Shown here one piece after another: positions 46,138-63,573 of a DNA stretch of 64,000 nt; the first letter of the stretch is position 1; each line of letters opens with the position of its first letter. The notes beneath the pieces are model-generated. The model was not told the DNA's origin and searched no databases. It worked only from the letters and a program-made list of their open reading frames with translations. Origin of the DNA: Halogeometricum rufum (lineage in GTDB: Archaea > Halobacteriota > Halobacteria > Halobacteriales > Haloferacaceae); the NCBI RefSeq assembly GCF_900112175.1, contig NZ_FOYT01000001.1, forward strand, positions 372,001 to 436,000. The letters are read 5' to 3'. A program made the translations under genes and the position numbers.

Positions 46138-46196
46138 GGCTCAGGGTGTGGTGTGAAACGGTAGGATGGTGGCAGGTTGTGCGAGGGGGTGCGGGG

Positions 46197-46715: not shown

Positions 46716-46855
46716 ATCTCAGACCATGTGATGCTACGTATTATATTTCCGGGTGTTTTTTGACGTAATATACGGATTACAGGGAGTAGAAGCCATATGA
46801 CGAACCATATGGCCACCCGATAGTATAACACAAATCAGGAGAATCTGGTGATTGT
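46716..46855. promoter_or_regulatory. Divergent promoter region with 8-bp palindrome
   Basis: The spacer separates the leftward membrane operon from the rightward ATPase operon. It holds a leftward TATA (cgtattatattt, 46737-46748), a rightward TATA (gatagtataac, about 46819) and GCCATATG-acgaac-CATATGGC (46792-46813), a perfect palindrome well placed for a shared regulator. Confidence 0.65.
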
Positions 46856-47735: not shown

Positions 47736-48688
47736 GCTCGACGGGTGAGACGGTAGACGTCAGCGACCGGATGGAGTCGCACGCTCCACCTGAGAATCTC
47801 GCGAGCCACATGAGCGAGATGCCGAAGCCGGTGATGGAGAACCTGATTCTCCGGCGGAAGGTGTGGCCGCGGATGAACGTGTGGAACGAGAACTGGATGT
47901 GCTTCTTCGCCGGCGGGACTGGCTCGGGGAAGTCGTACGCGACGCTCCGACTCGCGTCGGCCCTCGATCCGACGTTCCACGTCGGCCGTGTCGCGTACTC
48001 CGTCGAAGAGTTCCTGAAGCTGGCCGCGCAGGACCTGCCGGAGGGTGCGATCATCGTCCTCGAGGAGGCGGGCGTGGCGGCGGGGAACCGCGACTGGTAC
48101 ACGATCGCCAACAAGGTGCTGGACGCGCTGACGCAAACGTGGCGGCACCAGAACAACGGCGCGATCATGACGGCGCCGGACTTCGACTTGATCGACAACC
48201 ACGTCCAGCGGCGTTTCCACCACCTGATGGTGATGGAGGGGAAGAACGAGGCCGAGGGGATCTCGAAGGCCCGCGTCAAGTACATCCAGACGAACCACGA
48301 GATCGGGAAGATGTACAAGAAGTACCACCGGATGATCGGAGACGACGGCGTCCTCCGGCGGTACAAGCACATCAAGTTCCGTCTGCCCGATCCAGAGGTG
48401 ATCGAGGCGTACGAGAACACGAAAGACGACTACTCCGAGGGTCTCGTCGGAGACCTGCTGGAGCAGATCCAAGCGGAGCAGGCGAAGAACGAGAAAGAAG
48501 ACCTCTCGCCGATGGAGGTGGCGCAGGAGATTCTCGACGAGGACCGAGTCGGAGATTACATCAGCGAGGCGTCTGGTGGCGAGTACTTCGATCGGGACCT
48601 GCTGAAGATGGACTGGAACGTTTCGGAATCGCAGTCGAAGCAGATCAAGAAGTATCTGGTCCGGGAGGCTGATCTCGATGTCATGTGA
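47732..48688 (+). CDS. P-loop ATPase (Zot/packaging-like)
   Basis: The 318-residue ATPase has Walker A GGTGSGKS (61-68), Walker B AIIVLEEAG (106-114), and a sensor-like segment (MTAPDFDLIDNHVQRRFHHL). A C-terminal helical/winged part (250-318) follows. Single ATPases of this kind serve DNA or protein translocation in membrane viruses (the pleolipovirus NTPase, or Zot-type proteins of filamentous viruses). No terminase nuclease domain is present. It is probably the motor of the particle module. Confidence 0.82.
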   Translation: MSSTGETVDVSDRMESHAPPENLASHMSEMPKPVMENLILRRKVWPRMNVWNENWMCFFAGGTGSGKSYATLRLASALDPTFHVGRVAYSVEEFLKLAAQDLPEGAIIVLEEAGVAAGNRDWYTIANKVLDALTQTWRHQNNGAIMTAPDFDLIDNHVQRRFHHLMVMEGKNEAEGISKARVKYIQTNHEIGKMYKKYHRMIGDDGVLRRYKHIKFRLPDPEVIEAYENTKDDYSEGLVGDLLEQIQAEQAKNEKEDLSPMEVAQEILDEDRVGDYISEASGGEYFDRDLLKMDWNVSESQSKQIKKYLVREADLDVM

Positions 48689-48859
48689 GGAGAGGTCCGA
48701 ACGACACCCCCACACCCCCACACCCCTGTGTGTTTATACTAAGTTGAGATACGCGACTGGGGTCGAACCGAGTCGGTCGAATCGGTCGGTCTTCGGCGTT
48801 TCATCGCGTAGGCGGCGGGCGAGCGCGGCCTGCACGCGGTCCTCGTGGAGGTGTTCGTG
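48689..48859. promoter_or_regulatory. Internal spacer with TATA-like element
   Basis: The spacer has a C-rich run (cacacccccacacccc), a short palindrome around cacacccctgtgtg and TATA-like gtttatacta (48731-48740), a possible internal promoter for the genes at 48860-50528. A minus-strand frame (48734-48886, GTG start, 50 codons) has plausible bias but no other support. Confidence 0.4.
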
Positions 48860-49018
48860 ATGCGCTTGTCCGATGTCGATGAGCACGGCAAGAGGACGGC
48901 CGCTCAGCAGCAGGAGTCTCGGGACTCGGCGTTCCGGTACGGGCTGGCGCTCGGCGCTGCTGTCGGCCTGTCGGGCGGGATGTTCGTGACTGTCGTCGCG
49001 CTGCTGGTGGTAGCATGA
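48860..49018 (+). CDS. Single-pass membrane microprotein (52 aa)
   Basis: MRLSDVDEHGKRTAAQQQES is followed by one helix (YGLALGAAVGLSGGMFVTVV). The stop overlaps the next ATG (ATGA), which supports it as a real gene. No family recognised. Confidence 0.62.
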   Translation: MRLSDVDEHGKRTAAQQQESRDSAFRYGLALGAAVGLSGGMFVTVVALLVVA

Positions 49019-49284
49019 CTCTGCTCGATCGATTCCACGAGGAGTACGAATCCGACGGCGCGCTCGTGCTGTTCCGCTGTGCCGAGTGTGGCTACACGTC
49101 GATGAGCCTCGGACTGTTCCACGCGCACTGCGAGAAGCATCGAGGCTACACTCGCTTCGGTATCCAGGTCCCGTTCACAAAGACGTCGCCGGGACGGTTC
49201 GAGGGCCTGATGGAACTGACCGAAGTACTGCGCGTCGAAGAGACGTCGACGATCTCCCTCGAGGACGTGGAGGGTCGACGATGA
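49015..49284 (+). CDS. C2H2 zinc-finger protein (89 aa)
   Basis: The 89-residue protein holds CAEC (23-26) and HAHCEKH (36-42), a classical C2H2-type finger within FRCAECGYTSMSLGLFHAHC. It may bind DNA or protein. It is coupled by ATGA overlap with its neighbours. Confidence 0.72.
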   Translation: MTLLDRFHEEYESDGALVLFRCAECGYTSMSLGLFHAHCEKHRGYTRFGIQVPFTKTSPGRFEGLMELTEVLRVEETSTISLEDVEGRR

Positions 49285-49565
49285 TCGGCGGATCGGTCCC
49301 GCTGCTTCAGGCAGTCACGGCTCTCCACGTGGTGATCGTGGCGGGTATCTTCGTGTGGTCTGTCTGGCCGGGGATTCGCGAGGTTTCGTCGCGCTCTGCA
49401 TCTGGTCAGTTCCGTTTCTGTCCGCACTGCGGCGCCGCGGCGGCTCACGCGTACCACGGTGGAGTCGCCCTCGAGTCGGTGCGGGTCTCGGAGAAGTCGA
49501 GTCAGCACATGCGGTGTCCTGACTGTAGTGTTACGTCGGTAGTCATCACGGAGGATGATCGATGA
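49281..49565 (+). CDS. Membrane-anchored zinc-ribbon protein (94 aa)
   Basis: One N-terminal helix (LLQAVTALHVVIVAGIFVWS) and a cytoplasmic zinc ribbon with CPHC and CPDC pairs. ATG 49281 overlaps the upstream stop and fits the hydrophobic start. Function unknown. Confidence 0.72.
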   Translation: MIGGSVPLLQAVTALHVVIVAGIFVWSVWPGIREVSSRSASGQFRFCPHCGAAAAHAYHGGVALESVRVSEKSSQHMRCPDCSVTSVVITEDDR

Positions 49566-50236
49566 CCTCTGTTCGAGGTCTCCTCGAGGAGGTCGTGCCG
49601 TGGCCGACGGTCCGGTTTGCGGGGGTTCGTGTTCCACGGCCTCCAGGTGGCCGCGTCCCGTGGCCGACAGTCGCGGACTCGAAGTCTCACTACGAGGCGG
49701 CTTTGCTCGATGCGATTCGGGAGACCGTCTCGATCGGCGACGACGTCGTCATCGCCGGCGGTGAGTACGGCGTCTCGTCAGTCGTCGCAGCGAATCAGGC
49801 GGGCCACTCTGGCACCGTCACGTGTTTCGAGGCGGCAAGAGATGTCGCCGAGAGAGCAGAGGAGACGGTGACGCTGAACGGCGTCGGTCACCGAGTGAAC
49901 GTTCGGAATCGAGTCGTGGAGACTGAGGGACTGACACGAGGCGAGGACGTCGGCCGCCCGATCCGGCTGGATCGTGTCGACTCACCCGACGTGCTGGTTG
50001 TCGATGTCGACGGCGCCGAACTGGACCTCGTCCGAGCACTCTCGTCCTCGAGGCTCTCGCCCCGCGCCGTCGTGGTGGAGCATCACGCTGTCCCCGGAGG
50101 CTCGGACTACAATCCGGGGAGAGTCGTGTCGGCGGTCGAGGAGGCTGGCTATCAGATTGTGGCCGTTCACACGCGAAAGATACCGCCTCGATTCGGAGGG
50201 CAGGAGACCGTTCTGATCGGGAGGCAGAGCCGATGA
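49562..50236 (+). CDS. FkbM-like SAM-dependent methyltransferase
   Basis: The 224-residue protein has a Rossmann-type SAM pocket (DDVVIAGGEYGVSSVVAANQ), an acidic strand (TVTCFEAARDVAERAEETVT) and VLVVDVDGAELDLVRALSS, the family's DVDGAE motif. FkbM enzymes O-methylate sugars or other hydroxyls. In this operon it could modify glycans on the surface protein or host S-layer; the substrate is inferred. Confidence 0.75.
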   Translation: MTSVRGLLEEVVPWPTVRFAGVRVPRPPGGRVPWPTVADSKSHYEAALLDAIRETVSIGDDVVIAGGEYGVSSVVAANQAGHSGTVTCFEAARDVAERAEETVTLNGVGHRVNVRNRVVETEGLTRGEDVGRPIRLDRVDSPDVLVVDVDGAELDLVRALSSSRLSPRAVVVEHHAVPGGSDYNPGRVVSAVEEAGYQIVAVHTRKIPPRFGGQETVLIGRQSR

Positions 50237-50352
50237 GTGAGAACTTACCCGGTGTAGTCTTTCAGTTCGCCTCAATCGTTATCATAGTCGTCATCCTGGT
50301 CGTCGTGGCCTACGTGTGGCTGTTCCAGCCACTCGGGAGGATGAAACGATGA
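50233..50352 (+). CDS. Single-pass membrane microprotein (39 aa)
   Basis: MSENLPGVVFQFASIVIIVV continues as one strong helix, ending WLFQPLGRMKR. Start and stop overlap both neighbours by four bases, which is the main support. Confidence 0.65.
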   Translation: MSENLPGVVFQFASIVIIVVILVVVAYVWLFQPLGRMKR

Positions 50353-50528
50353 GATTCGGTCCAGGGTATTCAGAACCGCCGAGAGTATTCGTCTGGCTGT
50401 TTGTCGGCGCCATGGCCTTTGGACCGTGGATCTATGGATACCATCAGGGTGGGGCGGTCGGAGCCGTGCTTGCGGCAGGACTGGCCTACCTGCTGTACTG
50501 GGGCGTTTCTCTCACGCTCAGATATTAG
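50349..50528 (+). CDS. Small membrane protein (59 aa)
   Basis: Two helices (PPRVFVWLFVGAMAFGPWIY; VGAVLAAGLAYLLYWGVSLT). The last gene of the rightward operon; a repeat half-copy begins 15 bases after its stop. Confidence 0.65.
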   Translation: MRFGPGYSEPPRVFVWLFVGAMAFGPWIYGYHQGGAVGAVLAAGLAYLLYWGVSLTLRY

Positions 50529-50543
50529 ATCTCGCTGAGACTC

Positions 50544-50630
50544 GGACTTCCGAGAATCACCTACCCCCGGAGATCGCTCTGCTGGTGTCACTATCTCTTG
50601 ACAGATACTGCAAAGCGTGCTGAATACAGG
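50544..50630 (+). repeat. TIR repeat, right half (copy A)
   Basis: It matches the right part of the full copies at 53902 and 55007: cttccgagaatcacctac, then gctggtgtcactatctcttg, and the right terminal repeat CGTGCTGAATACAG. The left half is missing. Confidence 0.75.
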
Positions 50631-50679
50631 GCGCAAATCGGTCACTCGCCCCTGCCGAGCTCGATGGGAGGTATAGCTG

Positions 50680-50847
50680 CTATACTTCGAGAGGCTCGCC
50701 AGAGTCGTTCCAGAGTAAAATAGCGCCGACAATTGCAACGACTGACCATGCGACTATCGTAAGCGTATTGTCCTCCACGTATCCGGCTATGGCGAGAGCG
50801 AGGCCGAGGAGAATCTGAATACCGTACAGAAGATGTCTGAGGTTCAT
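50680..50847 (-). CDS. Small membrane protein between repeat halves (55 aa)
   Basis: Two helices (LLYGIQILLGLALAIAGYVE; IVAWSVVAIVGAILLWND). It is a lone gene enclosed by a right-half repeat (A) and a left-half repeat (D), so it looks like a cassette. Function unknown. Confidence 0.6.
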   Translation of the reverse strand: MNLRHLLYGIQILLGLALAIAGYVEDNTLTIVAWSVVAIVGAILLWNDSGEPLEV

Positions 50848-50963
50848 ACTATAGAGGCAGTACAATACAGTATATATCCTATGTCGAGTCACGCACCCAG
50901 CTATCTACGGCCGTGTCATCACTGATTAAGTAGAACGAACACCGATGGCTTGCTGAACTCACC

Positions 50964-51029
50964 CTCTGTATTCACCATGACGCTCTGACAGTCATTCGAG
51001 TAAATCTAGTCGGGAGATGCTTCCGAGAA
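50964..51029 (+). repeat. TIR repeat, left half (copy D)
   Basis: CTCTGTATTCACCATGACG and following bases match the left part of the full copies, including gcttccgaga, where the match stops. The right half is missing. Confidence 0.65.
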
Positions 51030-51093
51030 GAGAGGTTCAGCGGACTTGCTAAGTACCTCACGTAGGTCTGTCACAGCTCCGCTTGAACACTAC

Positions 51094-52182
51094 TCAATCA
51101 GTCCAGCGGTCAGTATCGCCAAACTCCTCATCTCCGTCGAAGGGTTCCGGCATATCGGTCTCGTTGTCAGCGTTGAGTAACAGATACCCCAGAGCAAGTG
51201 CCGTGTTGTAATCGATATACTTCGGATTTCGTTCGCCCACATATAGTGTCGAGTTCTCATACACCTCCGGGGAATCATCACTGTCAGTATTCAGTGCCCA
51301 GAACTGCCATCTCACCCCCTCTGTATCTTCTATTTTCACTACGATGTTGGACTCTGAGCGGCTGTCTACGAACTCGAAGGAAACGTCCTTGTTGAGATGA
51401 TCTGTGTCTGTTGTCCAGTACTCCCATCCCTCACGGATTTCTTGGCGGTACCCGTCTTCTTCAACGCTTGAGACAGTCCCAGCCGTGTCGAAGTAGACGC
51501 GGAACGTAGTCGTATTCCAGCCGTATGAACGATTTTCGAGATTCGGTTTTGGGATAAGCAACGTATCAATCGTCGCGTTCATCTGAGGTATCGTGTAGCT
51601 GTTGGAGTGCTCAAGCCCTCGCGTGTGACCCAGTTCGTGAATGATGATGTCTCGGGTGGTTGATGCTGCATAGTCATCTTCAACTCGGACAGTCGTCGGG
51701 TCCTCGGCGGTATCGAACTTATCCAGAACTGGAGCACAACCGACTGTTGAATCGTCGTACCCGTCGCAGTAGCTAATCGTATCGACGAACTGAATCAGAA
51801 TCTGCGCTTCGGACGGATCGGGTTCATAGGTATAGTTCACGCGATAGCTTCCCGCTGAGCGATTATTCCAGAAGGCCAGTGCATCAACGACAGGCTGCTT
51901 AAATGAGCGGTTCCGTGCATCATCCCCGATTCTGTACCCAACACGAACGGTATTGCTGGCAAACGGATTTGATGGCGGTTCGGGTGTGAGTGATTCTGAA
52001 GTGGGAGTCTCTGTAGAAACCGTCTTCACCGGCGTTGGTGTGTTCTCAGTCGGTGAATTTGTTTGCGACTCTGGTGTTATCGGCTGCGTAGCTGATTCGA
52101 CGCTAGTGGATGGAGGAACAGCCTCTCCACTACAACCCGCAAACAGCACGAGGAAACAAACCAGAACTTGATACTTCCTCAT
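51094..52182 (-). CDS. Matrixin-like zinc metalloprotease, lipoprotein
   Basis: A 362-residue protein with a lipobox (LFAGC, C17), a Thr/Pro/Ser-rich linker (20-72) and a metzincin-type domain. Zinc ligands H182, H186 and H192 and catalytic E183 lie in IHELGHTRGLEHS, with a Met-turn candidate M201 (IPQMNA). It is probably exported, anchored at the cell surface and able to degrade or process extracellular proteins. Codon GC is lower than in core genes. It stands alone between repeat pieces. Confidence 0.82.
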   Translation of the reverse strand: MRKYQVLVCFLVLFAGCSGEAVPPSTSVESATQPITPESQTNSPTENTPTPVKTVSTETPTSESLTPEPPSNPFASNTVRVGYRIGDDARNRSFKQPVVDALAFWNNRSAGSYRVNYTYEPDPSEAQILIQFVDTISYCDGYDDSTVGCAPVLDKFDTAEDPTTVRVEDDYAASTTRDIIIHELGHTRGLEHSNSYTIPQMNATIDTLLIPKPNLENRSYGWNTTTFRVYFDTAGTVSSVEEDGYRQEIREGWEYWTTDTDHLNKDVSFEFVDSRSESNIVVKIEDTEGVRWQFWALNTDSDDSPEVYENSTLYVGERNPKYIDYNTALALGYLLLNADNETDMPEPFDGDEEFGDTDRWTD

Positions 52183-52543
52183 GTAGTCAATTTATAGTAT
52201 GCTGAAATATATCTTTCGACGCCAAAGAAACAGCTGAACAACTAGAGAACAGATGGCGCTATCGCCTCGAAGAAAGGTACGTCCACAGCCGATGACTCGA
52301 AACAGGAACGCTTGGCTCTGTTGAAATCCTCAGCCGCTGATGGTTTGCTGAGGCCGTGCTGAATACAGGGCGCGAATGCAGCACGAGATTCGGCTCAATC
52401 TACGAAAGTGGTGATTGCTCAGGGGGCGGTAACGTTGTTGTGGGCGCGGAACTCAGGACATCAATCATCTCTCAACAAGTGGCGCTTTCAGATTTCGGAA
52501 GGCTCGAATGCGTCACTGGGGTCGTGTGGAGGATCCTTATCCT
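52183..52543. other. Spacer with repeat end (copy E) and IS-like bases
   Basis: Within this gene-free stretch CGTGCTGAATACAGGGCG (52355 on) is an isolated right terminus of the TIR repeat. ggctctgttgaaatcctcag at 52314 resembles a transposon terminal repeat but has no partner nearby. Confidence 0.5.
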
Positions 52544-53380
52544 TCAGTCTACTTCGCTAATAAAGGATAGCACCTCATCGGTATAGCGGTCCGGGGCAAC
52601 GAGATGTACTGCATGTCCGTATCCCTCGAAGGTAGCGAGTTGACTGTTCGGCATCATTCCGTCGAGTCGCTCGGCCAAACCTTTGTGGGGGCTCTCACTG
52701 CCGACGAGCAGTAAGGTCGGGGTGGATAGCTCTTCGAATGGTTTGAGGTTCCACCAATCGAACTCCGCCGCAGCACCCAACTCGGGCAGGAGAGTCTGAT
52801 GGAAGATATCCACGTGGGCGTCCCAAGCCGGTGATGAGCGAAGCTCGGTAAGTTCATCCGGTGTGAATTTCGCAAAGTCGCTGACGACCATCGATAGTGC
52901 CTGCTCGTTCTGCCCCTCTTCTATCAACGCAATCGTCTTCCCCATGGTTTCTTTCAGGACGGCTTTAATGTCCTCGTCGGGCGGGGCAGCAGGCTCGTGC
53001 GGGATTACGCTGGCGAGATTGTCGGTTCGCAGGGCTGCCCATAACGCGTAGTTGGCTCCTGAGGAATGACCAAGCAGGTGGACTGGTTCGTCGATCGACT
53101 CGACGACCGCGACCACGTCGGCAATCTGTGCGTCCGGACTTGCATCGTCAGAAGACGCGCTGTCGCCGTGGTTCCGTCTGTCCATGGCGTAGACTGTAGT
53201 CTGTTCCGCGAGCCTAGAGCGGACATTACCGATGTCCCATATCGACCGATCGATCATCGCCCCGTGGACGAGAACCAGCGGCGGCCCGCTTCCCGATCGC
53301 TCGTACCAAATCTCAGTTCCATCTGCGGACGTAACGGTTTCCATTTCTCCGCTGTTGTCTGATGGTGTTGCTTTGGCCAT
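52544..53380 (-). CDS. Alpha/beta hydrolase
   Basis: The 278-residue enzyme has the oxyanion-hole strand PPLVLVHGAMIDRSIW, the nucleophile elbow GHSSG (S106), an acidic residue after LLLVGSESPHKG and the catalytic His in GYGHAVHL. The family includes esterases, haloperoxidase-like enzymes and lactonases; the substrate is unknown. It is a lone gene in the cassette-like zone. Confidence 0.85.
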   Translation of the reverse strand: MAKATPSDNSGEMETVTSADGTEIWYERSGSGPPLVLVHGAMIDRSIWDIGNVRSRLAEQTTVYAMDRRNHGDSASSDDASPDAQIADVVAVVESIDEPVHLLGHSSGANYALWAALRTDNLASVIPHEPAAPPDEDIKAVLKETMGKTIALIEEGQNEQALSMVVSDFAKFTPDELTELRSSPAWDAHVDIFHQTLLPELGAAAEFDWWNLKPFEELSTPTLLLVGSESPHKGLAERLDGMMPNSQLATFEGYGHAVHLVAPDRYTDEVLSFISEVD

Positions 53381-53556
53381 GCTTGGTCTACGGGACGCTG
53401 GCAAGTGAACTGGTAATATATTCACGCCCGGATTGTGTTAGGAGGTAATGAGTGAACTGGGACGGATGAGACGGAACGATACTGAATTCATGCTCTAAAT
53501 GTTGCACGAGTGTTTTACCAGTTGGTGGATCGTTCGTAATTCTCCGCGTTACTTCG

Positions 53557-53892
53557 GTGGCCTATATTTCGTATCAAGACTTTCCTGAACGCGGCATCAC
53601 GATTGAACGACGGATGACACCACGAGTGCAACTCAACGAGTGGGAGACACTGATTGATGAACTACGTCGATTCGGTCGCGCGGGTGATGTAACGGCTACT
53701 GATGATCGGATTCATATCGACTTCGGCTCTGCACGTGTCGAATTGTCGCGCGATGGGACGCTCCAGACTGGGATGCCATTGCACGATTTCACGCACGATG
53801 ACACCGTCGTGGTTGTCGTGGATCACGACGCCGGCACCCTCACAGTTGACGCAGATACGGTAAGCTACACGTTCAGGCGGCCAAGTGGGTGA
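53557..53892 (+). CDS. Hypothetical acidic beta-rich protein (111 aa)
   Basis: A 111-residue protein from GTG 53557 (YISYQDFPERGITIERRMTP; VVVVVDHDAGTLTVDADTVS). No family is recognised. It ends just before full repeat copy B. Confidence 0.55.
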   Translation: MAYISYQDFPERGITIERRMTPRVQLNEWETLIDELRRFGRAGDVTATDDRIHIDFGSARVELSRDGTLQTGMPLHDFTHDDTVVVVVDHDAGTLTVDADTVSYTFRRPSG

Positions 53893-53901
53893 TGACTACA
53901 T

Positions 53902-54045
53902 CCTCTGTATTCAGCACGACGATCGTGACAGTCATTGGAGCAAATGTAGGTGGTACAGGTGCTTCCGAGAATCCCCCACTCCCGGAAATCCTCTGCTGGT
54001 GTCACTATCTCCTGATAGGGACTGCAAAGCGTGCTGAATAGAGGG
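53902..54045 (+). repeat. TIR repeat, full copy B (~144 bp)
   Basis: The left terminus CTCTGTATTCAGCACG and right terminus CGTGCTGAATAGAG are inverted repeats. The inside matches copy C at most positions (cgtgacagtca.tggagca; ctctgctggtgtcactatct). There is no coding capacity, so it is MITE-like. Confidence 0.8.
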
Positions 54046-54081
54046 TACGTATCGGTTACGTGATGAGGTGAAGGCTTCGAT

Positions 54082-54870
54082 TCAGTCCGTTATAGACGCC
54101 GCCTTCTCCCCGAGACCGATACGCCGCCCATAGATGAACAACCAGAAGATCAGCAGGACTTCGCCGACGAACGTGAACGCGGCGACCTCGAACGAGTAGC
54201 CAGTGAGGAGTACCCGGCCGAAGCTATCGATTACGTAGCCAACTCCCGCGATGGCCAAGAGGACGCCCAGCACCTTCGGAACGTACCCGGACTTATACGA
54301 CGGGACAGCCCCCGATCGGTACACAAGATACCCCAGTAGCACCAGGTGGAGACCGACGAGGATCAATGCGGCATCCCAGATGTCGTAGAAGGCGTTGACG
54401 CCAAGCAGCGCTTGGGCGTAGTGCTGCTCCGTGCTGAATGCCGAAACCGAGTTGGCAGTGGTCAATATCGAAAGCACGCCCGTGAGCTGACTGATTGCCA
54501 CCATGAAGATCCCGGCGAAGACGATTCTAAACCACGCCATCAGCAATGCGATTCCGCGGCTAACCGGCTCGAACACCACATACAACGCCCACGCGACAGT
54601 CAGATCGAGCACAGCGACCACGAAGAGACTCGCGATGGCGAAACGGAACGTTCCTTCGGCGTTCAGAATAGCGCTCGCGGTTTGCGCGGCGTTTCCCGGC
54701 GTGACAAGGGCATCTAACACGGCGAAATTGGCAAACGCCGCTAACGGCGTCATCACGAGGAGTGCGAGTCCAGCGATCAGACTCCCCCGACGCACCGAGT
54801 GATCCGCGAGATTCACTTCGTCCGACTCTGGGACGTAGCCTTCATCGGACCTGATTGTCGTTTCAACCAT
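54082..54870 (-). CDS. DUF4386-like polytopic membrane protein
   Basis: A 262-residue protein with six to seven helices (LIAGLALLVMTPLAAFANFA; FAIASLFVVAVLDLTVAWAL; DAALILVGLHLVLLGYLVYR). The pattern fits the DUF4386 family of unknown role. It stands alone between full repeats B and C. A start at 54870 (MVETTIRSDEG) is preferred over one three codons upstream. Confidence 0.75.
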   Translation of the reverse strand: MVETTIRSDEGYVPESDEVNLADHSVRRGSLIAGLALLVMTPLAAFANFAVLDALVTPGNAAQTASAILNAEGTFRFAIASLFVVAVLDLTVAWALYVVFEPVSRGIALLMAWFRIVFAGIFMVAISQLTGVLSILTTANSVSAFSTEQHYAQALLGVNAFYDIWDAALILVGLHLVLLGYLVYRSGAVPSYKSGYVPKVLGVLLAIAGVGYVIDSFGRVLLTGYSFEVAAFTFVGEVLLIFWLFIYGRRIGLGEKAASITD

Positions 54871-55006
54871 CCCTCCCAATGGTCACGTAGCCGCATAACC
54901 ATATCTCTCAAATCGGTCATATACCGATTCTCTGGTTCACAGATGCGGTTTAACACGAACCGGGCGGGGTTCACCCTGTTGGAGATTCAACGATGCTGCA
55001 CTCACT

Positions 55007-55145
55007 CTCTGTATTCAGTACGACGCTCGTGACAGTCAGTGGAGCATGCAGTTAAGACGGGTACTTCCGAGAATTACCTACTCCCGGAGATCCTCTGCTG
55101 GTGTCACTATCTCTTGATAGATACTGCAAAGCGTGCTGAATACAG
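55007..55145 (+). repeat. TIR repeat, full copy C (~139 bp)
   Basis: It runs from CTCTGTATTCAGTACG to CGTGCTGAATACAG with the same interior as copy B. Termini pair as inverted repeats of about 14 bases. Confidence 0.8.
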
Positions 55146-55224
55146 CGCGCGAGTCAGTCACGAGACACTCACAGGCTAAGCAGTACTGAGCGGATAGAGA
55201 CAGAATGAATGCGACACGAGAGCG

Positions 55225-55641
55225 TCATTCACCCAACCACGTCGGTGCTTCGGGGATCTCCTGTGGAGAGTTATAGTGTAACTGTTTTAGACACTCTGTG
55301 ATGAATCCGACAATATCTCGGCCTGCTTCCGGTTCAAGGGTGATTACAGTACCGAGCCTGTCTCCTTGTGTGAAATGGAATAGTATCGCGTCGTCGTAAA
55401 AATTCACAGTACAATGGTTATTTCCGAGTTCGAACGGCTCCTCAGAAGTCTGATACTGATTTTCCTTCCGGTAATACTGTACCAGCTCCTCCATCTTCTC
55501 GTTTGAGTATAGAGAATCTACGTCGTCTCGCAGATATAACACATAATACTCATCTTCAGAATAGTGGATTGCTCCGCGGAAATATGGGCCTGCTTGCTTT
55601 TCGAGATAATTTACCAGACGATTAGCAGATTCTTTTGGCAT
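55225..55641 (-). CDS. Haloarchaeal small hypothetical protein (138 aa)
   Basis: A 138-residue soluble alpha/beta protein (RLVNYLEKQAGPYFRGAIHY; DAILFHFTQGDRLGTVITLE) of a type frequent in haloarchaea, perhaps with a roadblock-like or sensor fold. No function can be given. GC is clearly lower than the core genome. It is flanked by repeat C and half-repeat F. Confidence 0.65.
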   Translation of the reverse strand: MPKESANRLVNYLEKQAGPYFRGAIHYSEDEYYVLYLRDDVDSLYSNEKMEELVQYYRKENQYQTSEEPFELGNNHCTVNFYDDAILFHFTQGDRLGTVITLEPEAGRDIVGFITECLKQLHYNSPQEIPEAPTWLGE

Positions 55642-55781
55642 ATTGAATTATCAACCCTCGAATGAGGCTATTCTCTTAAGACTAAATAACTCCATAGGAA
55701 GCGTCCGATATGAACGTGATACTTGATGGATAGTTCAGCGCTGACAGCTTGGGATAAACAAGGCCTCCGAGCGAGATCCAC

Positions 55782-55855
55782 CCTTTGTATGTAGCACGAT
55801 GTTCGTGTCAGTCAATGGAGCAAATCTAGTTGGGACAGGTGTTTCCGAGAATGGT
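55782..55855 (+). repeat. TIR repeat, degenerate left half (copy F)
   Basis: ctttgtatgtagcacgatg, then cagtcaatggagcaaatcta and gtttccgagaat match the left half of copies B and C. The match ends at the same internal ttccgaga point as copy D. Confidence 0.65.
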
Positions 55856-55973
55856 CCATTCTCGTAACCGACTGGTCCTCGAGGACGCCAAACCCCCCCG
55901 ATTCGGGTGGAGATCGAGGCGACCGAACTAGCTAAGGTTCCGGAAAATAGAGATAACTACGATTACCGGAACC

Positions 55974-56597
55974 ATGCAAACCCGTCCATACCCGTCAAAG
56001 TCTGGTCGTCGTCTCTGGCTCTCGCGAGCCGAGCAGCAGCGGCTCCTCGACTGCGTCGACGAGGACTACCCGAGACGTCGCATCGCCCTCGACCTCGCGC
56101 TGACCGGACTCCGCAGCGACGAGGTTCGGAACGTCGAACCGAGACACTTCGAGCGCCTCGACGGCGGCGACGACAAGTGGCGCCTCACAGTCCCGGATGG
56201 AAAGACTGGGACGCGGTCGACGCCAGTCTCGCGCGACCTCCGAGAGCGAGTCAAGTATCTGAAGTCCGCTGCTCGGCTTCGCGCCGATGAACCCATCATC
56301 GATGTCTCCACCAGGTCACTCCGCGACTGGATCGGAGAAGCGCGGGACGAACTCGCCGACGTCCTCGAGGACGATCGCTGGCACGACCTCGGGATGCACG
56401 ACCTCCGACGCACCTGGGCGACGGACACCTTCTACTCGCTGGCGTTCGAGGGCGTCCCGATCGCCGAGGAGCTGACGATGGCGTGGGGCGGCTGGGCGAT
56501 GACCGACTCCGGCCGCGAAACGTTCCGTCGCAACTACCTTGGCCCGGTCCCAGATCATGTGACAGCGAGCGCGATGGACCACCTACCTATCTCATAA
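55974..56597 (+). CDS. Second tyrosine recombinase (short form)
   Basis: The 207-residue catalytic-domain-only integrase keeps R47 (TGLRSDEV), H142-x-x-R145 (HDLRRTW), W174 and Y188 (RRNYLGP). It lacks the N-terminal core-binding domain, as do many short haloarchaeal integrases. Its place at the end of the repeat-separated gene row suggests a nested or earlier element, or a role in moving cassettes. Confidence 0.85.
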   Translation: MQTRPYPSKSGRRLWLSRAEQQRLLDCVDEDYPRRRIALDLALTGLRSDEVRNVEPRHFERLDGGDDKWRLTVPDGKTGTRSTPVSRDLRERVKYLKSAARLRADEPIIDVSTRSLRDWIGEARDELADVLEDDRWHDLGMHDLRRTWATDTFYSLAFEGVPIAEELTMAWGGWAMTDSGRETFRRNYLGPVPDHVTASAMDHLPIS

Positions 56598-56883
56598 TTA
56601 GAACCAGAAGCGCACAGTGTGTGCGTACACGGGCGTTCTCGCACAGAGGTGAAGCACGGTGCATCTACCGAAGTCTTCATTTTCGAATGAGTCAGAATCG
56701 AAATATATCCTCTGCTGAAACCTGCTTGATTAGAGTTCTCGAAGCTCATCCCTCTCTTGTATAGTTCTACTGGCATCCGGTGGTTCCGATAGCCGATAGT
56801 GTACTGTTATGCTTCAATAGCCGCCAAATCGGATAGAACGACCTTTCCGCTATCTCCTGAAGTTCCAATCGGTGATGCGGGAA
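56598..56883. other. Gene-free, AT-richer spacer
   Basis: No gene or repeat was recognised. Base composition is more AT-rich than the core chromosome. Confidence 0.45.
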
Positions 56884-57531
56884 CTATTGATTTTCAGCCT
56901 CACGAATGCACTCTGGATACTTCCAAACAGAGGCTGATCCACCGACATGACGAACAAGACATTCGAATTCGGGATGTTCGTCAAAGTATACAAACAACCA
57001 CTCTCGATCACCGATCACAGTATCTGGGATTTCTTCGACCGTCGCTCGTGAAGGCAACTGCCGATAGATCGCATCAGGCGACGTCCCATCAATTTTAACC
57101 GAGCCAGGAGACCCTGTGCTGTACCGACGATTTGGTGCAGAGTAGTATTTATCTCGAGAGATTATCCAGTCTACATCACTACGTGACTCATAGACGGCAC
57201 GATTTAGAATCTTGAGGTGCCGCTCACCCAGCCAATGGAGAATCCAATCATATGCCTCGCGAGAAACAGATGACCACACACCATTTGACTTCGAGAAATC
57301 GATTTGCTCTAATCTTTCGCGGTTCTCCTCTACAAATCGCGCAGCCGCTGCACGGATATCTCCTTCTAAGTAATAGACTGCAGAAAATCGGCCTTTAGTA
57401 TTCGATCTTGTAATACCGTTACACCCAGAGACATGGAGACGCCGTAACTCGGCCCGCTCTTCAGGAGATAATTGGGATCTATTGATGTCTGGCTGTGGAC
57501 TCTCAATAAGTGCCTCGTATGGCTCAGTCAT
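56884..57531 (-). CDS. Hypothetical protein of low GC (215 aa)
   Basis: A 215-residue soluble protein (ELRRLHVSGCNGITRSNTKG; EAYDWILHWLGERHLKILNR). No family recognised. Low GC and codon use unlike its neighbours mark it as a recent arrival. It precedes the terminator of the element-borne S-layer gene. Confidence 0.6.
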   Translation of the reverse strand: MTEPYEALIESPQPDINRSQLSPEERAELRRLHVSGCNGITRSNTKGRFSAVYYLEGDIRAAAARFVEENRERLEQIDFSKSNGVWSSVSREAYDWILHWLGERHLKILNRAVYESRSDVDWIISRDKYYSAPNRRYSTGSPGSVKIDGTSPDAIYRQLPSRATVEEIPDTVIGDREWLFVYFDEHPEFECLVRHVGGSASVWKYPECIREAENQ

Positions 57532-57608
57532 TATTATATCAACTAGTATTCCAGCAGCGATGTCGTTTACGGTGTCAGACGTCGTCGAAAGAAAGGTGAA
57601 GTGAGGTG

Positions 57609-57624
57609 ACCGGCGTGAGCCGGT
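57609..57624 (-). terminator. Conserved hairpin downstream of element-borne S-layer gene
   Basis: An ACCGGC-gtga-GCCGGT stem, with cgaaagaaaggtgaag next to it, is the same arrangement as after both chromosomal S-layer genes. Confidence 0.62.
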
Positions 57625-57634: not shown

Positions 57635-60532
57635 TTAGTCGCGGCGGACGGCGAGGAGCGCGGCGGCGAGGAGTGCCGTCACGGCGACGACGACACCGAA
57701 GCCGGGCGTACCCGTGCTCGTCTCCGTGTCAGCCGGTTCCTCGGTGGCCGTGCTCGGTTCCTCGGTGGCCGTGCTCGGTTCCTCGGTGGCCGTGCTCGGT
57801 TCCTCGGTGGCCGTGCTCGGTTCCTCGGTGGCCGTGTCCGGTGCGTCCGTCTCGGTCATCTCGGTTTCGGTCTCGACACTCTCGAGAACCGTCCCGTCGA
57901 CGGTGAGCGTGTCGCCACCGTTGCGGACCGTGATCTCGTACGTGTCGTCGACTTCCTGCTCGCTGAAGTCGAACGTGCCCGAGAACGTGTTGTTCTCGGT
58001 GACGTAGACGGTCGCGGTCTTCAGGAAGCTCGGCTGCGTGTCGCCGCTGGAGCGGACGCGCAGGTTGAGTTCCGTACCGGGTGCGACGTTCGTCTCACCG
58101 GAGATCGTCTGCTCGGCAGCGGCCGAGACGTTGTACGGGTCGTCGAGCGTGTGCTCGGGCGTGACGACTTCGTACTGGTCTTCGACCGTCTGCTGCTCTT
58201 CAGCGAGGTCCGTAGCCTCGTAGACCGTGAAGTTGGCCGTGAGGCCGTCACCGTCTTCGAGGTCACGGTTCGCATCGTTGGTGTTGACCGCACCCGTATC
58301 AACAACAACGAAGTAGGTGTCGTTGTCGCTGTCGGGGAGGACGGTCGCGCTGTTGTTGTTCAGGTTGAGCATGTACGGATCACGGTTCGCACCGGCGTCC
58401 GTCTGCTCGACCGTCAGGTTGACCGCACCGTTCGCGGCAAGGCCGAAGAACGCGGCCGTGTCGTTGCTGGCGGACTGGTCCTCGAGGGCGCCCTCGAGAC
58501 CGGATGCCTGAAGCTGGTGGACAGCGTAATCGCCGATCGCGATCTCGTTATCCTGCGTCAGGTTGTTGGTGCTGATCGCCGTGTAGACGTCGTCAGAGTC
58601 GTCGAGCGTCGTATCGGTGTTCGCCGTCCAGCTGGTGAGCGCAGTCGTGTTGCGCTCTTCGAGGACGAGCGTCCCGACGTTCTGCACGTCGTCGGGGGTC
58701 GCCTCGGTTCCAGTCTGGACTTCGAGGTCGTACTCGCCCGCTTCGAGGAGCGAGTCGACGCTGTTTTCGGTGTCGACGTCAGCTTCGTCGAGCGTGTCGT
58801 CAGAGTCAGCGACAGCGAAGACGGACTCCGCCTTACTGTCCGACAGGCTGCCGGACAGACCGGTGACGGCGTAGGTGTTGAACAGGACGGAAACCTGGCC
58901 GTCGCCGCTGTCGTCGACGACAGTGACGTTGCTGCGGAAGCCGACATCGGAGGACCCGAGTGTCAGCGTCGCAGTATCCGTGTTCTGGAGATCGACCGTG
59001 ATGTTCGCGATGTCGCCACGCTGGTCAGTGACGATGCCTTCCTGGAAGTCAGCACTGCCTTCGCCAGCTTTCGAGACCTCGATGGATGAGGACTCGGTTT
59101 CGACGCCGGACTGGTTGTCCGTCACCAGAACCGTGTAGTTACCCGCGTCGAGGCCGTCAGCGCTGAAGTTGTATTCGTACTCTGCCTGACCCGTGAGGTC
59201 AGCAGCGATCGTCGAGACGGTCTCCTCATCGGAGTCGAGGAGTTCGAGCGTGACCGGGCGACCACCAGAGCTGGCGGTGACCGTACCGGTGATACCGCTG
59301 TCGACAGCGTTCGTGACCGTCAGATCGTCAACAGAGACGTTGAGATCGAGGGACCGAACAGTAACGTTACCGTAGTTGTCAGGCGTTGCAGTACCGATCT
59401 TGACACGGTACGTGTCGAGCGCGCGGTTGGTCGTGTCAAAGACGAAAACCTGGCTGTTGACGCCCGTGGAGCCTTCGCGGTAGAAGGAACTGTCTTCGTC
59501 CGTACCTTCGACCTCGATGTTCGTGTTGACGCTACCAGCGAGGACTGCGACCTTCGACCCCTTGTACGCGTTGACCTTGGTGGTGTTCGTCACCGTGACA
59601 GGCGCGACGTCGACCGTCTTGTTGCCCGTGCTGGCGAGCGAATTGCCACTTCCGTCGATAACACTATCGGTGAGCTTGACCTCCACTTCACCGGTGTAGT
59701 AATCGTTCAGGTTGTAGACGACCTGACCGTTAGTGCCCGAATCGGGCTGGCCGAGGGTCATCACTTTCTTGTTGTCAACGTAGAGGCTAGCGTTGTTCTT
59801 GATCGTAACGTCCTCGTTGAACGAGATCTCGAGCTTCGCCTGGCTGCCGTCCTTGTAGTGGACACTCTCGAGGTAACTCGGCGTGTCGTCGGACACAGCG
59901 GTCAGCGTCGCCTTCTGATAGACGCCCTCACTCTGGTCCCAGTAGGCGGCCGTGATGGTCTCGCCATCGGCCGTCTGGAGGATACCGTCACCCGCGCTGG
60001 CGGAGCCGCCACCAAGCGTGTAAGCTACCGTAGTGGGGCTGCTGGACAGGTCCACAACCTTCGACTCGACAGCCGAGTCGTATTCGATGTGAACGTTGCC
60101 GGTGTCCGAAGCAGGCGCCGCACTAAGCGTCACTTCACCGGTGGTCGCGTTAACGCTCGAGATGGTCTGGGAACCACCGTCGACCGTAAGCGTGAGTTCG
60201 TCACCGATGAGGGTGCCGTCAAGATCCGAGTCAACGATGGGGGCATTGGCGACTGTGAAGGTCGTCTTCGAACCAGTGCCATCGAAGGTCTCGTTTTCGT
60301 TAGTTATCGTCTCAGTACCACTAAGGAAGACCACAGCGTCAGTTCCGGTACCGTCGGAATCAGATACTGTGAAACTCGCGTCTTCGCCTATCTGCACTTC
60401 CGACGAATCTGCGGAAATGCTACCGGCGACCGCAGCAGCAGATCCAGCGAACGCGATGGTGCCGGCGAAGACCGACATAACCATCAGCGCCGCGAGGAAC
60501 ACTGCGCGGAGTTGCTTCGTGTTGCTTGTCAT
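57635..60532 (-). CDS. S-layer glycoprotein carried by the mobile element
   Basis: The 965-residue protein has a signal peptide almost identical to copy 1 (MTSNTKQLRAVFLAALMV, residues 1-35), a different N-terminal ectodomain, and a conserved later ectodomain (AYKGSKVAVLAGSVNTNIEV; RVRSSGDTQPSFLKTATVYV). It ends with a spacer of five EEPSTAT repeats and the PGF-CTERM anchor TPGFGVVVAVTALLAAALL. It is intact, with promoter, leader and terminator like those of copy 1. Carriage by the element could let an infected cell wear a new surface lattice and so affect virus adsorption or superinfection; this is inference. Confidence 0.92.
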   Translation of the reverse strand: MTSNTKQLRAVFLAALMVMSVFAGTIAFAGSAAAVAGSISADSSEVQIGEDASFTVSDSDGTGTDAVVFLSGTETITNENETFDGTGSKTTFTVANAPIVDSDLDGTLIGDELTLTVDGGSQTISSVNATTGEVTLSAAPASDTGNVHIEYDSAVESKVVDLSSSPTTVAYTLGGGSASAGDGILQTADGETITAAYWDQSEGVYQKATLTAVSDDTPSYLESVHYKDGSQAKLEISFNEDVTIKNNASLYVDNKKVMTLGQPDSGTNGQVVYNLNDYYTGEVEVKLTDSVIDGSGNSLASTGNKTVDVAPVTVTNTTKVNAYKGSKVAVLAGSVNTNIEVEGTDEDSSFYREGSTGVNSQVFVFDTTNRALDTYRVKIGTATPDNYGNVTVRSLDLNVSVDDLTVTNAVDSGITGTVTASSGGRPVTLELLDSDEETVSTIAADLTGQAEYEYNFSADGLDAGNYTVLVTDNQSGVETESSSIEVSKAGEGSADFQEGIVTDQRGDIANITVDLQNTDTATLTLGSSDVGFRSNVTVVDDSGDGQVSVLFNTYAVTGLSGSLSDSKAESVFAVADSDDTLDEADVDTENSVDSLLEAGEYDLEVQTGTEATPDDVQNVGTLVLEERNTTALTSWTANTDTTLDDSDDVYTAISTNNLTQDNEIAIGDYAVHQLQASGLEGALEDQSASNDTAAFFGLAANGAVNLTVEQTDAGANRDPYMLNLNNNSATVLPDSDNDTYFVVVDTGAVNTNDANRDLEDGDGLTANFTVYEATDLAEEQQTVEDQYEVVTPEHTLDDPYNVSAAAEQTISGETNVAPGTELNLRVRSSGDTQPSFLKTATVYVTENNTFSGTFDFSEQEVDDTYEITVRNGGDTLTVDGTVLESVETETEMTETDAPDTATEEPSTATEEPSTATEEPSTATEEPSTATEEPADTETSTGTPGFGVVVAVTALLAAALLAVRRD
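57735..57839 (-). repeat. Five 21-bp tandem repeats in the element S-layer spacer
   Basis: Unit ggttcctcggtggccgtgct plus one base is repeated five times, four of them identical, and encodes EEPSTAT on the minus strand. It has the same position and unit length as the 6607-6732 repeats but an unrelated sequence. Confidence 0.9.
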
Positions 60533-60680
60533 GTTTTAGTTAGTTGGGTAGTGACGACAGGGGCTTTGATCCAGCTCGCCTCCAGCTTGAGGGAGAGCGA
60601 GGGCTTACTCACCGAAATGCCGTCGTGGGTAGGGGTATCTCCTGCTTTTGGCGTCTACATTAAATACTTTGTGAACTTCC
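60533..60680 (-). promoter_or_regulatory. Promoter and leader of the element-borne S-layer gene
   Basis: On the minus strand aagttcacaaagtatttaat (TATA) is identical to the copy 1 promoter at 3892-3911. Also shared are ccctaccc.acgacg, tcggtgagtaagccct and tgtcgtcactacccaac. The block gggtaggggtatctc (60627-60641, plus strand) is identical to one upstream of copy 2. Confidence 0.8.
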
Positions 60681-61289
60681 CGTATTACTAACAATATCCA
60701 GTAAGAGGCAATTGAATAGTTGCTAAAGGTGCCGTAGAGCCTCTGTGTCTAATTCGTAGGAAGTAATTCTTCAACTGAGTACATAGGCTCGGAAAAATAA
60801 ATAAAAAGAGAAACTCTTATTTGCAACATGCTCAGAAGTTGAAACTGCCTTGCATGTATTTGGAGTGCTTGGCAGACAGGAAATCCGTGCAGGTGCCCAC
60901 ACACCGGCAGGATTCCTGAATGGGTAGAAACCGGGCGCGAAATTAATTACGCGCCCGTTTACATTCAACAGAGTTACCCAATCAGATACTCTATTGACAC
61001 GAATCTTGATGAGTCAAGCCGCGCCGAGTAGGCGCGGCGACCAACCTTCGTCTGTTTCATCTGAACCCTGAGCGCAGCGAAGGGTGAGGTAATCTGTAGG
61101 TGTGAGTCTTTACTCACACCCCTAACGGAGAAGTGGGGCACCCCCGGCGAACTTCGAACGCCGCCGCTCGTCGGCCTCGACATCGACGAACCGAACACCT
61201 CACTCAAGAATCAGGACCCGGGCGAAAAGGCGGAAACAGTTACCGGAAAATAGACGGGAGAGTAGTGTTGCCACTCACGAGACACCGCG
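60681..61289. other. Palindrome-rich noncoding region (origin candidate)
   Basis: Four inverted repeats lie within 200 bases: CGGGCGCG-aaattaatta-CGCGCCCG (60932-60957), GCCGCGCC-gagta-GGCGCGGC (61018-61038), ACCCT...AGGGT (about 61062-61085) and GGTGTGAGT-cttt-ACTCACACC (61099-61120). There is no credible gene. It lies just past the end of the rep-like gene, so it could be a replication origin; terminators are an alternative. Confidence 0.5.
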
Positions 61290-63431
61290 TCAGCCGTACG
61301 ACGGAGTCACCGAGTAGTTTCTCGGAAGGAGCTTCTTCAGCGCCCTCCAGTCGAGGTTGAAGCGCGAGTTGTCCGCGAGCGTCATCTCGATCTCGAACTC
61401 GCGGGCGAACCTGGGCATGTCCTCGCCGGCGACCTGCGCCCACTTCATCGCTCCCGCGCGGATGAGGCGCTTCGCGTCGTGTCGGTCGCTCGGCTTCCAG
61501 CCGAACTCGAGGACGTCGCGGTTCCCGCTGCCGTCGTGCTCGTGGACGTCGTCGACGTAGTGATCGAGCCAGCGACTCCACGGATCGTCGTCGCCGAACG
61601 TCTCCGCGCGCACCAGGTCGTCGGCCGCTTCCTCGAGCGTGTTCTCGACGACAGCGCGGGCGGAGTCGATGTGTTCGACGACTCCCTGCGCGATGTGCTT
61701 CGACGCGAGTTCGACGGAGCCGTAGTCGTGCTGGACGATGCTCCCGAGCCGCTTCAGCGACTTGTAGCAGGTACTGATGTGAACGCCGATCCGCTCGGCG
61801 AGGTCGGCGGGCGAGTGGTGACCGCCGTCGGTGAGGAGTTGGTCGACCAGGTCGACGTCGGTCTCCGTGAGGTTCCCGGCGACGGCGAACCGCCGAACCT
61901 CTTCGTCCTGCTGCTGGGCGATTCGCGGGAGCGGGTTCTCGATGATCTTCCGGAAGCGTCGACTACCCGTGACGGAGAAGTAGTCGTCCGCGACGAACAC
62001 CTGATGGTCCGGCGTCGTCGGGAGGTCCGACCACCGAAGCAGGTTCAGGAGTCCCTCGTCGAGTTCGCGCTCGAGGCGGTCGAGGTCGTCCCAGTACATC
62101 GTATCGTCGTAGAGGCCGTGCTGGAACGAGACACCGAGCTTCGGATTCTCGAGCGCCGTTCCCGCGTTCGCGTCCGGCTTCCGCATGTGGTAGTGCTTGA
62201 ACTCCTTCGGGAGTTCGTGACCGCCGACGAGAGCGGCCGCGCGCATCGCCCCGATCGTGGCGGTGTGGTAGTGGCCTGGGCACTCCCGGTCGTCCCGAAC
62301 TGTCTTTGAGTATCCCGCCCGCTCGCGTCCGAGGAGCAGCGAGATACGGTGAAGCGTCCCGTCGAACGCGTAGACCTTCCCGGTCAGTTCCTTCGCGACG
62401 CGCACGTAGTATTCTGCGTCGGTGACGTTCGACGATTCGTGAGTCTGCTCGGGGTGGCACGCATCCGCGTCGATCGAGGTGTACGAGTTCCAGCCGAACT
62501 CCGTCTGGCGCTCGCGAAGGACGTTGAGCGCGTCGTGGAAGAGGTCAGCGTACTGATCGAACTCGAAGTAACTCCCTTTGACATCGACGTCGACGCCGAG
62601 CAGGTCGTGCGGGTTCGAGATCGGATTGTCGTTGACCGATTCTATGTTCGGCCACCGGGGTGATACGTTGAAGAAGGCCCGTTGCCGGTTCTCCTGTCCC
62701 GCAGCGGCGTAGCTCTCGTACGCGCTGGGGTAGACGTAGATCAGGAACTCGATCGGGTCCTCGAGTCTCCAGTCCCAGGGACCGAGGTCGGAGTCATCCT
62801 CTGGCGCTTTGATTCCGCAGTTCTTGAATCCGAACGAGATGTTCCAGTCCTGATCGTCGAACTCGAGGCCGGCGCGAAGGCGTCCGTACTCCTCGAAGTC
62901 GTGCATCTTGTAGAGCGAGACGAGGCCGAAGTAGGTGCTGAGAGCGTTGTCGTACTTGAGGTAGGCGCTGAACTCGTGAGGCTGACCGTCGATGAACTGA
63001 CGCGTGTCGAGGCCACCACCAGAGTGCATCGTGCGGGCCCGCGAGTTCCGTACCTCCTTTTCTCGGTAGCGCTGATACTCGTCGCACGAGTAGAGGTGAT
63101 CCTCGGGGTCGTCTCGGGAGGTGTGTTCTTCGCCACAGAATCGGCAGGCTGAGACGGGCTCTTTCGAGCAGTCCTCGTGCGAGCCCGCGTCTTCTTCGCT
63201 TTCGAAGCCGACGCGGCACCAGCGACACTCGGCGACGAACTTCGAGGCCGGTTCTTCGTGCTCGGACTCGTCGTCGCTCGCGTCCAGGTCGGCGCCATCG
63301 GTGCCGGCGCTCGAGCGGATTCGGTTTGCTTCGGTGTTTTCGACCTCGTTGGTGACGGAGTCCTGGTCGTCGGAGGTGACGGGTTCGGCGCCGCCGAGGA
63401 AGTCGAGCGGATCGTCGACGTCCTCAGACAC
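61290..63431 (-). CDS. Large zinc-finger/winged-helix protein, candidate replication initiator
   Basis: The 713-residue protein has an acidic N-terminus, two C2HC fingers (C69, C72, H85, C88; C96, C99, H112, C116), a long central domain (SGGGLDTRQFIDGQPHEFSA; NSYTSIDADACHPEQTHESS) and a winged helix near 540-600 (DGGHHSPADLAERIGVHIST). The GTG start at 63429-63431 is fixed by the strong RBS ggaggtgatc (63435-63444) and by TATA tatataaaag at 63485-63494, which puts transcription start near 63464. Relatives occur on haloarchaeal plasmids and proviruses. Its site next to att suggests replication, but no rolling-circle or primase motif is visible. Confidence 0.7.
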   Translation of the reverse strand: MSEDVDDPLDFLGGAEPVTSDDQDSVTNEVENTEANRIRSSAGTDGADLDASDDESEHEEPASKFVAECRWCRVGFESEEDAGSHEDCSKEPVSACRFCGEEHTSRDDPEDHLYSCDEYQRYREKEVRNSRARTMHSGGGLDTRQFIDGQPHEFSAYLKYDNALSTYFGLVSLYKMHDFEEYGRLRAGLEFDDQDWNISFGFKNCGIKAPEDDSDLGPWDWRLEDPIEFLIYVYPSAYESYAAAGQENRQRAFFNVSPRWPNIESVNDNPISNPHDLLGVDVDVKGSYFEFDQYADLFHDALNVLRERQTEFGWNSYTSIDADACHPEQTHESSNVTDAEYYVRVAKELTGKVYAFDGTLHRISLLLGRERAGYSKTVRDDRECPGHYHTATIGAMRAAALVGGHELPKEFKHYHMRKPDANAGTALENPKLGVSFQHGLYDDTMYWDDLDRLERELDEGLLNLLRWSDLPTTPDHQVFVADDYFSVTGSRRFRKIIENPLPRIAQQQDEEVRRFAVAGNLTETDVDLVDQLLTDGGHHSPADLAERIGVHISTCYKSLKRLGSIVQHDYGSVELASKHIAQGVVEHIDSARAVVENTLEEAADDLVRAETFGDDDPWSRWLDHYVDDVHEHDGSGNRDVLEFGWKPSDRHDAKRLIRAGAMKWAQVAGEDMPRFAREFEIEMTLADNSRFNLDWRALKKLLPRNYSVTPSYG

Positions 63432-63484
63432 GCCGATCACCTCCGCTGATGGACGAAAACGAAGAATCGGCAAAATACGCCGGG

Positions 63485-63515
63485 TCTTTTATATACGCGA
63501 TGGGACCGCCCGGAT
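63485..63515. other. Attachment site, right copy
   Basis: 31 bases identical to 31105-31135. It covers the last 15 bases of tRNA-Pro and 16 bases of flank, and contains the TATA box of the rep-like gene. The homology to the left end continues, with mismatches, for about 45 more bases leftward. Confidence 0.85.
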
Positions 63516-63573
63516 TCGAACCGGGGTCACGGGCACCCAAGGCCCGAAGTATACCAGGCTAACCCACGGTCCC
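63501..63573 (-). tRNA. tRNA-Pro (anticodon UGG)
   Basis: The 73-nt cloverleaf has acceptor GGGACCG/CGGTCCC with discriminator A, a D-arm with GGTTAGCCTGGTA, an anticodon stem CGGGC/GCCCG around loop CTTGGGT (anticodon TGG at its centre), and a T-arm CCCGG-TTCGAAT-CCGGG. CCA is not encoded. Its 3' end is the integration target of both elements, and the integrated element restores an intact gene. Confidence 0.96.

Follow-up and report, generated by a model that had tools for sequence, protein, structure and literature searches.

An LSV-48N-type provirus at a tRNA-Pro gene

The window analysed here, a stretch of 64,000 nucleotides of Halogeometricum rufum (contig NZ_FOYT01000001.1, positions 372,001 to 436,000), carries at a tRNA-Pro gene a 32.3 kb element (31228-63514) that harbours a full-length S-layer gene together with a promoter, leader and terminator-like hairpin of its own (Table 1). 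Judged by its genes, the element is a provirus of the type of the lemon-shaped virus LSV-48N, with a virus core that is intact by its ORFs.

Table 1. Features of the provirus and its S-layer unit, and the two further S-layer genes of the window
Feature	Coordinates	Strand	Remarks
S-layer paralog, chromosomal	4036..6825	+	929 aa; nearest to the 57635 gene in leader, signal and anchor
S-layer paralog, chromosomal	18401..20746	-	781 aa
attL core TGGGACCGCCCGGA	31228..31241		just before int1
int1, SNJ2/LSV-48N-type tyrosine integrase	31388..32416	-	adjoins attL
LSV-48N-type virion/morphogenesis module	36430..48688		colinear, full-length ORFs
Zot/DnaA-like ATPase	47732..48688	+	75% identity to LSV-48N
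Second cargo region	48689..55973		FkbM methyltransferase, M10-like peptidase, alpha/beta hydrolase, DUF4386
int2, small tyrosine recombinase	55974..56597	+	84% identity to LSV-48N; left border of cargo slot
Palindromic motif GTGCGTN4GGGCGTTCTCGCACAG	56620..56645	+	just downstream of int2
215-aa ORF	56884..57531	-	same slot as S-layer unit; GC3 42%, foreign-looking
Terminator-like hairpin ACCGGCTCACGCCGGT, then CCTTTCTTTC	57588..57624	-	common to most S-layer paralogs
S-layer glycoprotein gene	57635..60532	-	965 aa, uninterrupted ORF
Host-type core promoter CACAAAGTATTTAA (60660-60673) and 5' leader (TACCCCTACCCA...GTGAGTAA)	60533..60679	-	80% identity to leader of the 4036 gene
Predicted rolling-circle origin hairpin GGTCGCCGCGCCTACTCGGCGCGGC	61018..61042	-	invariant in LSV-type elements; right border of cargo slot
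Rep-Arvir (DUF7845) rolling-circle replication endonuclease	61290..63473	-	727 aa
attR core TGGGACCGCCCGGA	63501..63514		tRNA-Pro 3' end; homology with four element-free relatives starts here
tRNA-Pro(UGG)	63501..63573	-	integration target

LSV-48N (PP151251) is a chronically produced virus that has been seen by electron microscopy (PMC12714723). It shares with the window provirus a colinear arrangement of SNJ2-type integrase, virion module, ATPase, int2, origin hairpin and Rep-Arvir gene, and most core proteins are 45-84% identical (63% for the integrase and 60% for Rep). LSV-48N is smaller (24.9 kb) and has no S-layer gene, whereas the window provirus is without a Cdc6-like gene. The latter (CDS06 in LSV-48N) is present in H. 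limi at 62%, and its absence here renders the activity of the provirus uncertain. A further relative is the provirus of H. limi CGMCC 1.8711 (NZ_FOYS01000001.1, ~371334-402830), which represents the same virus at the same tRNA-Pro, with the same gene order and ~80% DNA identity, yet holds other genes in place of the S-layer gene. LSV-48N aside, the kinship to pleolipoviral relatives is confined to the integrase, and PHROG profiles gave no matches at all for the large ORFs of the virion module, with no pleolipovirus spike or membrane-protein gene recognised among them. Scans of viral contigs with the S-layer protein, the ATPase, int2 and the origin hairpin gave no match, and no detectable relative of the S-layer protein was found in viral contigs or phage records.

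The DUF7845 protein is assigned to Rep-Arvir, a family of rolling-circle endonucleases (PMC13107129), and downstream of its gene lies a 28-nt hairpin sequence that is invariant in six elements. The 25-nt core of this hairpin occurs at ten places in 394 haloarchaeal genomes, at nine of them behind a Rep gene; by analogy to the SNJ2 origin (PMC13107129), it is predicted to be the origin of replication. The second cargo region found no counterpart when compared with other LSV-type elements; its genes are surrounded by dispersed repeats of 120 nt (50530, 53944, 55046).

As to the boundaries, homology of the right flank in four relatives (G001, G003, G004, G011) starts exactly at the tRNA end. To the left of the tRNA, the sequence in G003 and G011 (BLAST) and in G001 (by eye) resembles that left of attL in H. 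limi or the window, and on these comparisons it is the empty site. With its att repeats at a tRNA gene, and with relatives in which this site is unoccupied, the element qualifies as an integrated provirus. The first-pass annotation had placed the S-layer gene on a mobile element, a claim that is borne out and can now be narrowed to an LSV-48N-type provirus with its att cores. It had also named the occurrence of the gene at the same place in strains lacking the element as an observation that would count against it. What we found instead is that the four empty-site relatives diverge exactly at the tRNA end and, conversely, that the sister species H. limi has the element without the S-layer gene. 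An att site first assigned to 31105-31135 was replaced by the present one after the empty-site comparison.

The neighbourhood of attL holds further traces of elements. Just to its left, at 31052-31135, lies a decayed copy of the right end of the provirus (rep upstream region and tRNA 3' end), which an earlier element of this type probably left behind as a scar. An AT-rich island (25684-31135) between repeats that resemble the tRNA-Pro end (25691, 31121) encodes an OLD/AriA/GajA-like ATPase-nuclease (26250-28255, in two frames) and a PIN protein (30242-30667), and may represent an element with defence genes that sits in tandem at this tRNA.

A mosaic S-layer gene with host-type signals

The protein encoded at 57635 consists of a signal peptide (residues 1-34), a rare outer domain (36-212), a middle and DUF7827 part, a BGTF domain (~797-883), a Thr/Glu-rich spacer and a PGF-CTERM membrane anchor, and we counted 21 sequons in it. 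It matches the NCBIfam model of ArtA-dependent S-layer glycoproteins, NF041335, over residues 151-965 with 669 bits (E=1e-200), which is below the equivalog cut-off of 1100, as are the scores of the two window paralogs (640 and 664). We therefore class it as a member of the S-layer family and not as an NF041335 equivalog. NCBIfam further recognised the signal peptide (halo_sig_pep, TIGR04207; 47.7 bits, cut-off 24.6), the anchor (PGF-CTERM, TIGR04126; 44.5 bits, cut-off 24.5) and the BGTF surface domain, and Pfam matched DUF7827 and PGF-CTERM. The general architecture is thus that of csg-type haloarchaeal S-layer glycoproteins (NF041335), which share the signal peptide, DUF7827, the BGTF domain, a Thr-rich spacer and the PGF-CTERM anchor. 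Unlike these, however, the protein is provirus-borne, and its type of outer domain has usefully similar counterparts only in the H. rufum genome and in one sister species. A PDB sequence search gave no relative, and a scan of named genomes with the S-layer protein, near records left out, gave no match. An AlphaFold prediction built from three rows reached a mean pLDDT of 39 and was set aside.

Seven full-length S-layer genes are present in the host genome (4.19 Mb in 7 contigs), three of them inside the window, and the signals around the 57635 gene are those of its paralogs. The promoter box CACAAAGTATTTAATG is identical to the one preceding the 4036 gene, the leader blocks TACCCCTACCCA and GTGAGTA recur in most paralogs, and the 3' hairpin CCGGCTCACGCCGG is common to other S-layer genes of the genome. 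Between the 57635 and 4036 copies, 115 of 143 positions are identical in the leader, 98 of 102 in the signal codons and 53 of 58 at the 3' end; the leader alignment scored 76.5, as against a maximum of 15.5 for shuffled sequences. RNAalifold predicted no conserved RNA fold for the leader.

Along the coding sequence, the nearest relative changes from segment to segment. In codon alignments, the 4036 gene is the nearest match for residues 1-40 (88%) and the gene at C3:139k for residues 41-212 (50-58% DNA), while the anchor comes nearest to the 4036 and C1:1109k genes, at up to 92%. In agreement with this, trees place the N-terminal segment with C3:139k and its counterpart in H. limi (87/94) and leave the DUF7827 segment outside a clade of three other paralogs of the same genome (100/100); the anchor is placed among the host's own copies, where the forks are weakly resolved. 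The outer domain (36-212) found good matches in 394 genomes only in the C3:139k paralog (45%) and the H. limi counterpart (40%); three further matches were all weak. Besides, none of the other six genes (GC3 85-91%) has a GC3 as low as that of the 57635 gene (79%). On these alignments and trees, the protein is a mosaic: leader and anchor are of the host type, the outer N-terminal domain is a rare one, and the central part stands outside the host-homogenised group. The first-pass annotation thus recognised correctly a 965-residue S-layer glycoprotein with a differing outer ectodomain, the former upheld by the uninterrupted ORF and the NCBIfam and Pfam matches, the latter by a best match of 45% among the 394 genomes. 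Its statement that the signals equal those of "the chromosomal copy" stands in part: promoter, leader, signal, anchor and hairpin do match, but there are six other full-length copies, not one.

Two observations concern the S-layer loci at large. In the trees of the G000 and H. limi paralogs, the C-terminal halves cluster by genome and the N-terminal and middle parts by synteny, a contrast that points to gene conversion between S-layer loci. In addition, a comparison with H. limi shows an inversion of the window segment 6949-18217, which is bounded by the opposed S-layer genes at 4036 (+) and 18401 (-), which H. limi does not have there. As G011 agrees with H. limi on the neighbour of tRNA-Pro, the inversion looks derived in the window genome, and its endpoints suggest recombination between S-layer genes.

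The cargo slot between int2 and the origin

In LSV-48N and Haloferax G261, ~30 nt separate the int2 stop codon from the origin hairpin. The same interval in the window measures 4.4 kb and holds the 215-aa gene and the S-layer unit. Across the LSV-type family this slot is differently filled in four elements and empty in two. In H. limi it contains genes for a membrane protein, an HNH-repeat protein, a weakly FokI-like protein and a 458-aa protein; in Haloferax G135 a single gene, which reads as a Mrr-type nuclease (a reading of the sequence, not a database match); and in Hfx. mucosum a 236-aa gene. PADLOC returned no matches for the slot genes. The palindromic motif downstream of int2 is found in three cargo-bearing elements and not in those with an empty slot. 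Of the LSV-type regions examined, the window element is the only one in which an S-layer gene turned up; such a single case shows no recurrent advantage, which counts against a function in surface conversion. Given its position, the S-layer gene is cargo of the provirus. Being accessory to the virus, variably present and equipped with its own transcription signals, it has by sequence the hallmarks of a lysogenic-conversion gene.

Further details concern the slot and its borders. In Haloferax G135 (L120, ~9430-11150), a segment with a second, diverged and oppositely oriented recombinase fragment seems to interrupt int2, which suggests that this gene can be an insertion target in its own right. 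In the H. limi slot, another fragment within the cargo looks, by eye, like the 3' end of int2 (L051:5340-5403); a search of the window slot for a duplicated int2 end flanking the cargo showed none. At G000:C2:678708-679219 (L151, L124), an orphan LSV-type origin hairpin without a Rep gene lies ~460 bp from a copy of the palindromic motif, in the relative order seen at the ends of the cargo slot. This locus might be a mobilised unit of origin and cargo end. The orphan origin and motif hint at cargo capture driven by the origin, in an ISCR-like manner, but the intergenic region concerned is variable in all relatives and offers no clean empty site.

Proposed surface conversion and competing readings

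We lean, with modest confidence, towards the view that the LSV-48N-type provirus carries the S-layer unit as host-benefit cargo that alters the cell surface and excludes competing viruses. The unit would be transcribed from its own host-type promoter, and its product would be exported, glycosylated, ArtA-anchored and built into the host S-layer. As the outermost N-terminal domain is unlike the common host types, the surface bound by haloviruses would be changed, and competing or sister viruses could be excluded, amounting to lysogenic surface conversion. Receptor change with superinfection exclusion appears the likeliest function because S-layer proteins are known receptors of three haloviruses. 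The S-layer glycoprotein serves as receptor for HFTV1, with a hot spot at residues 237-246 (PMC9973310), and for HRTV-DL1, whose escape changes in two S-layer genes map to residues 45-46 and 209-210 (PMC10544981), and it triggers fusion of HRPV-6 (PMC8875312; also as cited in PMC9973310). The HRTV-DL1 and HFTV1 sites fall around the region of the exchanged outer domain, although numbering across these proteins is only roughly comparable. The six other S-layer genes of the host could mask any effect of the 57635 gene. For the same reason, the "replacement of the main surface protein" proposed in the first-pass annotation is too strong a wording, and an addition to, or shuffling of, the S-layer repertoire is just as likely.

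The main rival, which we consider rather unlikely, is that a host-type S-layer gene, one of seven, recombined into a resident provirus as a neutral passenger and renders no special service to virus or host. S-layer genes are indeed many and mobile here, with two more within 57 kb at both ends of the inverted segment, and the leader and anchor are of the host-lineage type. However, the gene sits in a slot that the family fills variably, and it is no recent duplicate: its leader is about 15-20% divergent, its outer domain unrelated and its GC3 lower, and it lies beside a gene with a GC3 of 42%. There is a small chance that the provirus copy acts mainly, much like a silent cassette of surface-variation systems, as a source of new outer domains, which would recombine into S-layer genes of the host by way of the leader and anchor that they have in common. 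The segment-wise mosaicism in the trees, with C-terminal halves homogenised per genome and N-terminal and middle parts following synteny, would fit such a donor. Yet the unit has, unlike a silent cassette, its own complete promoter and signal, and no other locus shows signs of having received its outer domain recently (best 45%). That the protein is packed into or decorates the particles and aids release or attachment is highly improbable: the gene does lie within the viral genome, and living cells release LSV-48N particles without interruption (PMC12714723), but LSV-48N and other elements manage without an S-layer gene, and this one has a host-type promoter apart from the virion operon as well as a host membrane anchor. 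Surface conversion may also be part of something broader, though we deem this unlikely, namely a virus-driven system of surface variation in which the origin-adjacent slot of LSV-type elements circulates coat and nuclease-type genes, and S-layer units serve both as coat-switchers and as outer-domain donors.

In bacterial lysogenic conversion, prophages alter O-antigen and receptors by means of sugar-modifying enzymes or small inhibitors. The window provirus would resemble these prophages in carrying cargo that alters the host surface, yet here the cargo is the wall protein itself. We class a provirus-borne, complete S-layer unit as a putative variant of lysogenic conversion for which partial precedents exist. 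On genomic island 1 of Haloquadratum walsbyi, an S-layer gene likewise lies on a strain-variable segment with its N-terminal region exchanged, which is thought to evade viruses; that island, however, was reported as deletion-coupled and not identified as a provirus (PMC3119063). Gene 23 of the methylophage Melnitz is an S-layer-like gene on a virus, with superinfection protection proposed, but the carrier is a bacterial lytic phage (PMC9004378). Further S-layer-like genes are found on a cryptic integrated element of a thaumarchaeon (PMC6563490) and, distantly related, on the Hrr. lacusprofundi plasmid NZ_KX906370, neither of which was shown there to be a provirus. For these last three, a host-type leader, anchor and terminator have not been demonstrated, whereas the 57635 gene has all of them. 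In the literature covered, from which many subscription papers are missing, we came upon no previous description of an archaeal provirus with a complete S-layer transcription unit.

LSV-48N, a relative of the provirus, has been cultured in Haloferax and can be cured there, which makes surface conversion testable. Among the receptors of haloarchaeal viruses, S-layer proteins have the best support, and they differ greatly from strain to strain. If our reading is true, a temperate virus that brings along an alternative S-layer gene in full would offer such variation a direct means of spreading, and would represent archaeal lysogenic conversion that acts on the wall protein itself.
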